Source: Candidatus Nitrosacidococcus sp. I8 (GTDB lineage Bacteria; Pseudomonadota; Gammaproteobacteria; Nitrosococcales; Nitrosococcaceae). Taken from it: a stretch of 64,000 bases of DNA. Within the stretch, counting starts at the first letter, position 1. Each line of letters begins with the position of its first letter. The stretch lies in contig NZ_OX241534.1 in the NCBI RefSeq assembly GCF_945836005.1, forward strand, positions 248,001-312,000. Reading direction: 5' to 3'. Made by a program: the position numbers and the translations under genes. The notes below the pieces were generated by a model. The model worked only from the letters and a program-made list of their open reading frames with translations, made no database searches and was not told where the DNA came from. This document shows, in pieces, positions 26,981 to 64,000 of this stretch.

Positions 26981-28524
26981 ACCCCGGTGCCTTCAATTTC
27001 TGCCACAATGTTGTCAATCTCACTGCGTAATTGGCTAATTTTAGCCACAGTTGTTTTTAATTCTTTGTTGACTTGGGTAATATCAATCACTTCTCGAGTA
27101 TCTTGTGCTTCCACATAGGAATTGACGGCAAGATTATAATCATTCTGTGCAATGATGCTGTTCTCTACTGTGCTGGCAAAGTGATTAATAGGTTCCTTAC
27201 TTGCAAACACTTCCATAATTTTTTGGATATGTTCATCGGTCAGCACATTATTATTGGTCTCTTTTTTAAAGAGTTTGCTGGCATCAATAAATTGAGTTTT
27301 ATGATCGGTTTTGCATTTGGAAAGTACCAGAATATTTACCGCAATACTGGTGCCATAAAACAAGTTTGGCGCAAGGGCAATGATGGTTTCAATGGTGTTA
27401 TGATCTACCAAATATTGGCGGATTTTTTGCTCTGCACCGCTTCGATAAAAAATACCAGGAAAACAGACAATCACCGCTCGCCCTTTGTTGGAAAGATAAT
27501 GTAAGGCATGGAGCACAAAGGCAAAATCGGCTTTTGATTTAGGAGCAAGCACCCCAGCAGGGGCAAAACGATCATCATTAATCAAAGTGGGATCATCGCT
27601 ACCAATCCATTTGAGGGAGTAGGGAGGATTGGAGACAATGGCATCAAAAGGTTTTTGTTCTCTAAATTGGGGATTGGTTAAAGTATTACCTAGGGCAATA
27701 TTGAATTTATCGTAATTGATATTGTGCAAAAACAGATTCATTCGAGCCAGATTATAGGTGGTGTGGTTAATTTCTTGCCCAAAAAATCCCTCTTCAATAT
27801 GGGTAGGGAATTGCTTTTGCACTTGTAACAATAAAGAGCCAGATCCAGCAGCCGGATCATAAATTTTATTGAGGGTAGTTTGGTTATCTATTGCTAATTG
27901 AGCGATGAGTTTAGACACATTTTGGGGGGTAAAAAACTCGCCGCCGGATTTACCTGCACTGGCAGCATAGTTGGAAATTAAATATTCATAAGAATCCCCA
28001 AAGAGATCAATTTGATTCTGGTGAAATTTACCAAAATCTAATTTTGCTATTCCCCGAATAACATCAGCTAAACGCTTGTTTTTATCTGTAACTGTATTGC
28101 CTAAGCGATTACTGGTAGTATCAAAATCAGCAAATAACCCTTTAATGGTCAGTTCAGATGGATAGCTATGGGCAGAGCTTTCAATGGCTTTGAAGATATG
28201 GGCTAAATCCGTATTTAAGCACTCATTTTCACTCGCACGATTGGCAACATTTTCAAAGAGCTGGTTCGGATAAATAAAAAAGCCTTTGGTTTTAACGGCA
28301 TCATCTTTAATTGCTGGAGTAATCACCTCATCAGTTATCTGAGCATAATGAATAGTTTCATCCCCCGCTTCCATGTAATCCGCAAAGTGTTCGCTAATAA
28401 AACGATAAAATAGGGTACCCAGTACATATTGCTTAAAATCCCATCCATCTACCGAACCTCGCACATCATTGGCAATTTGCCAAATTTGCCGTTGTAAAGC
28501 TGCTCGCTGTTGGGTACTGGTCAT
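26977..28524 (-). CDS. hsdM: type I restriction-modification DNA methyltransferase subunit
   Basis: HsdM is the N6-adenine methyltransferase of the type I system. The 515-residue product has an N-terminal helical domain (about residues 1-150), the motif before the catalytic core [20 protein letters not shown] near 188-207, the SAM-binding [12 protein letters not shown] near 220 and catalytic NPPYSLKW near 300. A coiled-coil tail (about 480-512) should contact HsdS. An AGGA ribosome binding site precedes the ATG at 28524. It is the first gene of hsdM-fic-hsdS, and it lies after a terminator that isolates it from the secreted-protein genes upstream. Confidence 0.95.
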
Positions 28525-61567: not shown

Positions 61568-61665
61568 AATGCAGTACTGCCTAACACTGCGTTAAAGAGC
61601 TGATTAAATTAGCAAGCGAATACTAACCATTTATTTAATACTCTACCCTAGTTATCACTTTGAGT

Positions 61666-62637
61666 ATGAGCCGGTCTGATATGCTTTTTGAACTTCCTTT
61701 TGTTCAAGATAAAAATCTTGGTACATTCAAAAATCAAGAAATAGATGCTCAATGCCGCTCTTCTAGTATCTTACAAAACACGATACGAAGTCAGCTTCCT
61801 GATATTGTCGATATTCTTTTAACGGATCGAACCACATCTACAACTAAAAAAAAGAAAAATATCATTTGGGCAAATGAAAATTATCTCCAATACAGTAAAA
61901 AAGACTATGCAGTAACGGCTCAAATAAGATTAGAGTTGATCACTGGTCCCATGAATCAAATCATTATCCCCCGTGCTTTGAAGTCACGTACACTTCAAAA
62001 AGAGCGCACAAAGTCAAAAGCAGAAATTTTTACCCCAACCCGGATCATAAAAAAACAAAATGACATCATTGAACAAAATTACCTTAATGATGATTTAGAA
62101 ACTTATATCAAACGTACTTGGTTAGAAACTGCCTGTGGTGAAGCACCTTATATGGCAACACGCTACGATATGGAAACAGGGGAAATCATATCTCTTACAG
62201 ATCGTGTTGGTTTTATGGATCGAAAATTACAGCGTATTAATGCTGAAGTTAATGATAAGACTCAATGGCAACAATGGGTTGAAAAAGCTTATAAAGCAAG
62301 CTATGGCTTTGAATGGAACGGTGATTCTCTTTTATTAGCACGAGAAAACTTACTCTACACCTATCATGATTATTATTTTGCTAAATGGCATGAAGAGCCA
62401 ATCTACGATTTATATAAAAATATCGCGGAAATTATTAGCTATAACGTATTTCAGATGGATGGATTAAAGTACATTATCCCTCTTTCAGAAAAACGAGAAA
62501 AAATCACTCAGCAACAAATGAGTTTCTTCAATGACGAAGAATTAAAAGAACAATGGATCATAAAATCAGGGGAGAGAGTAAAAATTAAGAACTGGAACAC
62601 AGGGAAAATGGAGTTTTTCGATCACAATATGAAATAA
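61666..62637 (+). CDS. methyltransferase-like restriction-associated protein (no visible NPPY)
   Basis: The 323-residue product (ATG 61666; a TTG at 61660 is less likely) has KAEIFTPTRIIKKQNDIIE near residues 113-131, resembling the FTP region preceding N6-adenine methyltransferase cores, then TWLETACGEAPYMATRYD near 147-164, like the SAM-binding motif ACG. Further on are GFMDRKLQRINAEV and FEWNGDSLLLARENLLYTY. The catalytic NPPY motif is not present. I recall related proteins annotated as restriction endonuclease subunit M, but the role is not settled. It stops ten bases before the helicase gene, so they form a two-gene unit. Confidence 0.6.
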   Translation: MSRSDMLFELPFVQDKNLGTFKNQEIDAQCRSSSILQNTIRSQLPDIVDILLTDRTTSTTKKKKNIIWANENYLQYSKKDYAVTAQIRLELITGPMNQIIIPRALKSRTLQKERTKSKAEIFTPTRIIKKQNDIIEQNYLNDDLETYIKRTWLETACGEAPYMATRYDMETGEIISLTDRVGFMDRKLQRINAEVNDKTQWQQWVEKAYKASYGFEWNGDSLLLARENLLYTYHDYYFAKWHEEPIYDLYKNIAEIISYNVFQMDGLKYIIPLSEKREKITQQQMSFFNDEELKEQWIIKSGERVKIKNWNTGKMEFFDHNMK

Positions 62638-62647
62638 CAAAATAACT

Positions 62648-64000
62648 ATGAATGATAACACCACAATTAAAACCACAAAGTTAGTTCATCCACAAATTTA
62701 TGCCTACACCTTACCCTCTATCTCAGGTAAAAACGGCTGGATCAAAATAGGCTACATCGAGCGTCAAAATGTTGATGAACGGATTAAAGAGCAAACTAAA
62801 ACTGCTGCCATTGATTTGAAATATCATAAATTATGGTCAGAACCAGCACAATTTAAATCAGGCGACTGGTTTAAAGATAAGCAATTTCACACTTATTTAC
62901 GTAACTGCAAACAAATTAAGCAGTGTCCAAAAACTGAGTGGTTTTTCTATAACGGTACGCCTGAAAAATCTCTTGCTGATTTTAATGACTTCAAGAATCA
63001 GAATCTTACACAAATCAAAGAAAAACTAACCTACCAGTTACGCCCAGAGCAGGAAGAGGCAGTTGAGCAAACATTAAAATATGCTAAAAACCATCCTCAG
63101 GGTGAATTTTTATGGAATGCTAAACCTCGATTTGGTAAGACGCTCACTACTTATGATTTTGCACGCCAATTAGATGCAACCAAAGTCTTGATTGTCACCA
63201 ATCGTCCAGCTATTGCAAATGCTTGGTTTGATGATTTTGAAAAATTCATTGGATGGCAAACAGATTTTGCGTTTGTATCTACCAACGATTCATTGAAAGA
63301 TCGTCCTGTAATGACTCGTGATAAATTTCTTGATCAGCATGCCAATGGTAAAAAGCGTATCCTTGCTTTTATCTCATTGCAGGATTTAAAAGGCGCAATT
63401 TCCTTTGGTGGTATCCACGATAAATTATCATGGGTAAAAGAGATGGAATGGGATTTACTGGTGGTAGATGAACCCCATGAAGGGGTGGATACCTTTAAGA
63501 CAGAAATAGCGTTTGATAATATCAAGCGGAATTTCACCTTGCATTTATCTGGCACCCCATTTAAAGCTGTTGCTTCTGGCAAATTTGATCAAGATGCAAT
63601 TTACAACTGGAGTTATGCAGACGAACAAAACGCTAAAGCAAAATGGAATAGCTTAGAAGAAGATAATCCCTACCAGCGATTACCTCGCCTTAATTTGTTT
63701 TCCTATCAAATGAGTCAAATGATTACCGATGAGGTGAATAAAGGAGTAGGTATTAATGGGAAAAATATCGATTTTGCCTTTGATCTCAATGAATTTTTTG
63801 ACACTGATGAGAAAGGTAAATTTATCCATGAAACTGAAGTAAAAAAATGGTTAGATACCCTTTCTAAAAATGAAAAATACCCCTTTTCAACCAAGGCATT
63901 ACGAGATGAATTAAAGCACACTTTTTGGCTTTTGAATTGGGTTGCCAGTGCCAAAGCGTTACAAACATTATTACAAAACCATCCAGTATTTGAAAATTAT
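62648..64000 (+). CDS. GIY-YIG-like/DEAH-helicase restriction or defence protein, N-terminal part (partial)
   Basis: I found this by hand translation; the frame is open from ATG 62648 to the right edge (451 residues seen). The N-terminal part has YAYTLPSISGKNGWIKIGYIE near residues 18-38, which resembles a GIY-YIG nuclease opening (YxYT then IKIGY). The helicase core follows: LRPEQEEAVEQTL (Q motif), Walker A NAKPRFGKTLT near 157-167, VVDEPHEG near 272-279 in the DEAH position (DEPH) and LSGTPFKA. The order suggests a DNA-cutting motor. Its partner, the methyltransferase-like gene, precedes it. The C-terminal half lies beyond the window. Confidence 0.8.
   Translation, partial: MNDNTTIKTTKLVHPQIYAYTLPSISGKNGWIKIGYIERQNVDERIKEQTKTAAIDLKYHKLWSEPAQFKSGDWFKDKQFHTYLRNCKQIKQCPKTEWFFYNGTPEKSLADFNDFKNQNLTQIKEKLTYQLRPEQEEAVEQTLKYAKNHPQGEFLWNAKPRFGKTLTTYDFARQLDATKVLIVTNRPAIANAWFDDFEKFIGWQTDFAFVSTNDSLKDRPVMTRDKFLDQHANGKKRILAFISLQDLKGAISFGGIHDKLSWVKEMEWDLLVVDEPHEGVDTFKTEIAFDNIKRNFTLHLSGTPFKAVASGKFDQDAIYNWSYADEQNAKAKWNSLEEDNPYQRLPRLNLFSYQMSQMITDEVNKGVGINGKNIDFAFDLNEFFDTDEKGKFIHETEVKKWLDTLSKNEKYPFSTKALRDELKHTFWLLNWVASAKALQTLLQNHPVFENY

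Follow-up and report, generated by a model that had tools for sequence, protein, structure and literature searches.

A three-gene unit of the restriction-modification type with a putatively split adenine methyltransferase

The three genes A, B, and C described here quite probably form a mobile unit of the restriction-modification (R-M) type with a split adenine methyltransferase, in which A paired with C (A:C) would modify DNA and module P, located on B and paired with the same C (P:C), would restrict it. The window analyzed was a 64,000-nt stretch (G000:C1:248001-312000) of a 1.85-Mb genome. Gene B is cut by the window end and was completed beyond it, to position 65902, on L002 (the window coordinate equals the L002 coordinate plus 60999), and gene C was read from the same genome past the window end. 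C overlaps the end of B, and the unit comprises three genes, not the two assumed in the first-pass annotation. The overlap of the B stop codon and the C ATG reads TGATG, and GGAGGG is found a few bases upstream of the C start. The genes are as follows.

61666..62637, + strand: gene A, an open reading frame of 323 aa with ATG at 61666 and an alternative start, TTG, at 61660
62648..64000, + strand: in-window part of gene B, residues 1-451 of 1084, with the start ATG at 62648
62648-65902 (L002 1649-4903), + strand: full gene B, 1084 aa, extending past the window end
65902-66921 (L002 4903-5922), outside the window: gene C, 339 aa, beginning MKFDVVVGNPPYQ and containing motif IV and the target-recognition region

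Judged by its motifs (X, I, II, and III, without IV), gene A represents the N-terminal half of an N6-adenine methyltransferase. It carries motif X (FTP) and motif I (ACGEAPY), and [DNS]PP[YFW] is absent from it, which bears out the earlier description of a methyltransferase-like gene with ACGEA and FTP but no NPPY. The relevant regions are the following.

62020..62037, + strand: motif X region of A, AEIFTP, residues 119-124, with FTP at 122-124
62122..62151, + strand: motif I region of A, LETACGEAPY, residues 153-162
62302..62316, + strand: motif II region of A, YGFEW, residues 213-217, with the acid expected to hold the SAM ribose

All three regions have invariant residues in the alignment of gene A (A2), with A119, E120, F122, T123, and P124 invariant in the first, L153, E154, C157, G158, E159, and P161 in the second, and Y213, G214, F215, and E216 in the third. 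A strict motif I pattern was present in 141 of 148 A open frames and could be recognized by eye in four of the other seven, including that of this genome; the motif II acid pattern was found in 136 of the 148, and an NPPY-type motif ([DNS]PP[YFW]) in none of 108 stand-alone A proteins. A large subfamily, A', has the textbook motif I EPACGSGNFL, and the hhalign comparison of A with A' (99.2% probability, E 8.5e-20, 168 columns) places the two in one family. Gene A matched the PADLOC MTase_II model at 5e-72, which, together with homologues 60-70% identical in distant bacteria, puts the motifs of genes A and B beyond chance. The motif content suggests that A binds SAM. The alternative that A is an orphan enzyme with a non-canonical motif IV was not supported: a conserved [DE]W lies near the place of motif IV, but Pro-Pro is absent. 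A Pfam match of A to PhiKZ gp85 (E 0.0012, under its cut-off) was taken as chance.

Gene B, from its domain content, would be the restriction subunit, combining a GIY-YIG nuclease with an ATP-dependent SF2 motor and presumably cutting in an ATP-driven manner. Its features are listed below.

62696..62944, + strand: GIY-YIG (T5orf172-type) nuclease domain of B, residues 17-99 (Pfam T5orf172)
63032..63562, + strand: ResIII helicase domain of B, residues 129-305 (Pfam ResIII, 58.4 bits, E 1e-15)
63125..63142, + strand: Walker A-like motif of B, PRFGKT, residues 160-165
63467..63478, + strand: motif II of B, DEPH, residues 274-277, in the context VVDEPHEG
about 65498-65782, + strand, outside the window: module P of B, about residues 951-1045, with FTP, DLYVKSGLY, and YGFAP

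The GIY-YIG-like start and the helicase with DEPH that had been noted for B were both confirmed, the former by a T5orf172 score of 21.3 bits (cut-off 20) and the latter by the ResIII match and the VVDEPHEG context. Residues Y18, Y20, G35, R45, and E97 were invariant (alignment A3), and a GIY-YIG-like pattern was present in 119 of 122 B-type proteins. The features of an SF2 helicase-like ATPase in B include, besides ResIII, PRFGKT, and DEPH, the motif SGTPF; helicase motifs were found in nearly all relatives of B, with PRFGKT in 97 and MRFGKT in 27. DEPH itself was seen in a single one of the 116 relatives with a readable motif (DEAH in 94, DEYH in 11, DESH in 9, and DEEH in 1). We rejected it as a functional novelty: it is a one-residue change of DEAH, private to this genome, that keeps D, E, and H, and on this comparison it needs no special explanation.

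Module P, at the C-terminus of B, appears from its sequence to be a second N-half, one without the SAM-binding signature. It was homologous to A' across motifs X and I (hhalign 97.3%, E 2e-11), and in other clades it is fused ahead of C with a junction identical to that of A-C fusions. In this genome, Lys replaces the first Gly of motif I (DLYVKSGLY), and YGFAP has no motif II acid. These changes are general: in all 151 loci where B or C is intact, xK[ST]Gx[YF] took the place of motif I, while at motif II Ala or Gly was found in nearly all (YGLAP, YGFAP, YGIAI, FGIGI), with no acid seen. In class I methyltransferases such changes in motifs I and II should cripple SAM binding, and P would thus have lost it.

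Gene C, by its motifs, is the C-terminal half, with motif IV (NPPY), catalysis, and the target-recognition domain, and it starts exactly where the half represented by A ends. Pfam Eco57I matched C at 3.7e-18, covering model positions 73-171 of 171 only, and the stand-alone C proteins of this clade begin between a few and some tens of residues before NPPY. A complete NPPY methylase just downstream would, as stated earlier, have refuted the first reading. Half of this holds: an NPPY protein does begin 1.9 kb beyond the window end, but without motifs X, I, and II, all of which are in A, it is not a complete methylase.

That A and C are the halves of one adenine methyltransferase (the split, METHYLTRANSFERASE) is strongly supported by sequence comparisons. 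Between them, the two proteins hold motifs X, I, II, and IV, and their coverage of Pfam N6_Mtase was complementary, with model positions of about 20-118 matched by A' and about 118-242 by C or P-C. In the A-C fusion of locus L024, the Eco57I match spanned the A/C junction (residues 182-376 of 632 aa, 9.5e-20), and on P-C the same model scored 1.9e-39. Natural A-C fusions, found in about 40 loci, suggest that A and C form one functional unit. The earlier view of a defence-type unit that is not a simple R-M pair stands, and so does the lack of the catalytic motif in A; the accompanying suspicion that methylation is missing was not sustained, the methylase being, to all appearance, divided between A and C.

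The structural models of the A:C and P:C pairs were made with AlphaFold2 from single-chain fusions of relatives, not from the proteins of this genome. The A-C fusion (L024, 36 sequences) gave a mean pLDDT of 85.4 and a pTM of 0.81, and the P-C segment (L010, 48 sequences) gave a pLDDT of 90.7 and a pTM of 0.86; around motif IV, the pLDDT was 69-77 for A-C versus about 95 for P-C. Disorder was predicted in the A-C model for residues 246-292, between the halves, and for the C-terminal segment of A with the conserved [DE]W. The first Foldseek match was CamA for both A-C (E 3.4e-13, TM about 0.5 by target) and P-C (E 6.5e-17, TM about 0.54), co-linear over nearly the whole chain in each case, and was followed by BrxX, LlaGI, MmeI, M.BseCI, and LlaBIII. 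The TM against CamA was moderate, and the rmsd of about 9-10 indicates that the domain placement differs from that of CamA. Thus A-C and P-C are each predicted to fold confidently and to resemble whole adenine methyltransferases, and, from the common junction together with the co-linear fold matches, A and P would sit on one shared face of C.

The scan of bacterial genomes yielded at least 575 confirmed stretches encoding relatives, of which 80 loci were kept, with 60 and 24 more from virus contigs. Four modules recurred: A, H (GIY-YIG plus helicase), P, and C (NPPY plus the target-recognition region). With a slash marking the boundary between genes, the commonest orders in the helicase tree set were AC/HP (36), A/C/HP (22), A/HPC (19), A/PC/H (9), and A/HP/C (5), the last including this genome, Caviibacterium, Psychrobacter, and Staphylococcus. 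C occurred alone or fused, behind A or behind P, always with the fusion junction just before NPPY, and B and C were fused in Pediococcus and others. Enterococcus moraviensis has an A-C fusion, and Olsenella sp. An290 has A and C as separate genes. The architecture must have changed state at least 23 times on a FastTree tree, many branches of which are weak. A was present in 133 of 142 non-redundant loci with H and C; seven of the nine loci lacking it had less than 431 nt of upstream sequence, and another, L068, had 1.4 kb. The sole clear exception was L141 (5956-10441), with P-C and H genes and 6 kb of upstream sequence without A.

Conservation along the unit was uneven. When this locus was compared with its clade, identity was 26-43% in the central part of C, against 72-77% for the helicase, 75-86% for P, and 57-66% for A, and such low identity next to that of the helicase is the pattern of a specificity domain. 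In locus L110 (5836-12829), A and a fused H-P-C gene are followed by two spare C sequences, one of them inverted, and by a gene for a tyrosine recombinase. Inverted repeats of 33 nt (97%) lie at the NPPY codons, an arrangement like a shufflon-type specificity switch; the spare copies and the recombinase would fit a role of C as an exchangeable specificity cassette. At another locus, L060, of the A/C/HP order, a second, inverted C-type gene (1946-2818) lies upstream of A, and a 39-nt inverted repeat (79%) is found at the NPPY start.

Gene A was found in this genome only among the 59 searched (itself and relatives from the family and order), while plasmid relatives of A and B reached 60-70% identity in Enterococcus, Pediococcus, and Lactiplantibacillus, so that the A-B-C unit was probably acquired horizontally. 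The upstream acyltransferase gene was present in all six family genomes searched, and the downstream glutathione-peroxidase-like gene in this genome alone.

In four phage contigs carrying A and C (L150, L268, L353, and L269), which may be incomplete, neither H nor P was detected. L150 sits in a 225-kb phage contig, and L353 encodes a C of 306 aa and an A of 166 aa. In the L269 contig (8365-13139), a single A of 161 aa comes after a tandem row of five C-type genes of 269-295 aa, of which three have NPPY and two NIPF and which are mostly 21-34% identical to one another; here one SAM-binding half is apparently shared by several catalytic and specificity halves. Weak matches to the H-P model in L269, L353, and L251 fell on the A genes themselves, as expected from the homology of A and P. 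In ten further phage or prophage records (L305, L320, L339, L343, L301, L302, L163, L165, L168, and L167), an A-type gene was present and neither C nor H was detected in the record; these lone A genes may be counter-defence genes or parts of fragmentary contigs. Genes resembling that for S-adenosylmethionine synthetase lay within 6 kb of phage A-type genes at L153 (14447-15250) and L343 (10306-10689), with Pfam S-AdoMet_synt_N matches of 2e-9 and 1e-8, respectively. In the virus contigs L153, L155, and L157 (233-412 kb), the A-type gene was far from a protein of 1.8-1.9 kaa with helicase and NPPY on the same contig, which indicates that A is kept even when unlinked.

How the parts might work together can be outlined as follows. 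Assembly of A with C would give the modification enzyme. P, having lost the SAM-binding signature and yet still pairing with C, would form with it a complex that recognizes the target and, without SAM, tests a flipped adenine in the NPPY pocket; translocation and cutting would follow if this adenine is unmethylated but not if it is methylated. Such SAM-less reading by P:C has a precedent in LlaGI, in which the flipped target adenine is held in the NPPY pocket without AdoMet (PMC4872093). Methylation, exchange of partners by C, and phage defence are all proposed here, and we put forward only tentatively, as one possibility, the specific scheme in which C is shared between two N-half partners at the same site, A:C being the writer and P:C the SAM-less reader that triggers restriction. 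Its main difficulty is that P and C form one chain in some loci, so that A must displace P there or act otherwise.

That very arrangement, found with a separate A in 19 A/HPC and 9 A/PC/H loci of the tree set, is explained if A joins a preformed P:C as an additional subunit, supplying SAM in trans while C stays on P; this would also account for A having a conserved [DE]W tail, disordered in the A-C model. We nevertheless regard donation in trans as unlikely, since SAM must adjoin motif IV, a spot held by the N-half of P in the P-C model, and since phage A + C pairs occur without P. A little less likely still is a working methyltransferase made of P:C alone, with P binding SAM despite the Lys and A, for all its likeness to half a methylase, being a subunit for regulation or assembly. 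The P-C segment did fold with the highest confidence (pTM 0.86, pLDDT about 95 at motif IV), and NPPY is invariant in P-C fusions, which match Pfam Eco57I at 1.9e-39; against this, the motif I Gly is Lys in every P and no motif II acid was seen, whereas both signatures are intact in A. A is also commonly fused to C, and neither B nor P was detected in the phage contigs with A and C described above.

Hardly credible, finally, is an ordinary type IIG or type ISP enzyme that a frameshift has broken at the B/C boundary and beside which A is an unrelated relic, even though B and C are fused in Pediococcus and others and PADLOC gives them one type IIG model. C has its own ATG, overlapping the B stop with GGAGGG just upstream; the A-B-C order is repeated in Caviibacterium, Psychrobacter, and Staphylococcus; many other loci have a separate C gene upstream of B; and A is nearly universal. 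A simple B/C frameshift or broken gene is refuted by the ordered arrangement repeated in these three other genera and by the start and ribosome-binding-like site of C itself.

The architecture fits a restriction-modification system in the broad sense. By analogy, the unit would work in the manner of type ISP or type I enzymes, although it departs from the type ISP definition in chain number, nuclease type, and sequence relation. The fused B-C relatives share with type ISP enzymes (LlaGI, LlaBIII) the domain order nuclease, SF2 helicase, linker, adenine methyltransferase fold, and target-recognition domain, and the A-C and P-C models match the LlaGI and LlaBIII structures. However, type ISP enzymes are single polypeptides, whereas here there are three genes, and even the fused B-C relatives have a separate A; their nuclease is Mrr instead of GIY-YIG (T5orf172); and the N-half in the main chain is here without the SAM signature, which the separate half A has. 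No sequence match to the PDB chains of LlaGI or LlaBIII was obtained at E <= 0.1 with B alone or at E <= 1 with a B-C profile. B and C matched the PADLOC REase_MTase_IIG model (3e-25 and 6.7e-28), and A and C matched separate MTase_II models, so the parts are already catalogued as R-M components. Under these labels, A and C would each be a complete methylase, or the unit one single-chain enzyme, but neither A nor C by itself has all the motifs, and type IIG enzymes combine a nuclease and a complete methyltransferase in one chain without an ATPase, unlike the helicase and divided methylase seen here. With type III systems the unit shares the ResIII helicase family of B; those consist of a Mod with full motifs and a Res with a PD-(D/E)xK nuclease, whereas B has GIY-YIG, and no complete Mod was found adjoining B. 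CamA, the orphan adenine methyltransferase of Clostridioides difficile and the best end-to-end structural match of A-C and P-C, is one chain without nuclease or helicase, unlike A-B-C.

The C5 methyltransferases M.AquI and M.EcoHK31I naturally consist of two polypeptides, the larger of which retains motifs I-VIII and with them both SAM binding and catalysis (PMC3404938). They are cytosine-C5 enzymes, whereas the cut described here falls between a SAM half and a catalytic half. Our literature search, made outside REBASE and mostly in openly accessible papers, turned up no account of an adenine methylase split in this way and nothing describing A-B-C as a GIY-YIG helicase R-M system.

The divided layout is seen again and again across bacterial groups and also in phages, and relatives are present in hundreds of genomes. 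If the split is true, many stand-alone "methyltransferase" entries are half-enzymes, a search for NPPY, like one for motif I, overlooks or mislabels half of the system, and replacing C by itself could change the specificity, a possibility suggested by L110. If exchange of C is true as well, a phage-borne A could be a counter-defence gene that draws the host C into the state that methylates, and a single A alongside several C genes would provide a phage with combinatorial methyltransferases. The unit offers a direct test of whether giving a single half-domain a different partner can switch between restriction and modification.

Another Eco57I-like methylase domain (33.5 bits) was found elsewhere in the window, at 27373-27783 on the minus strand within a 522-aa frame, and the whole genome contained nine Eco57I-like matches, several of them over the cut-off.
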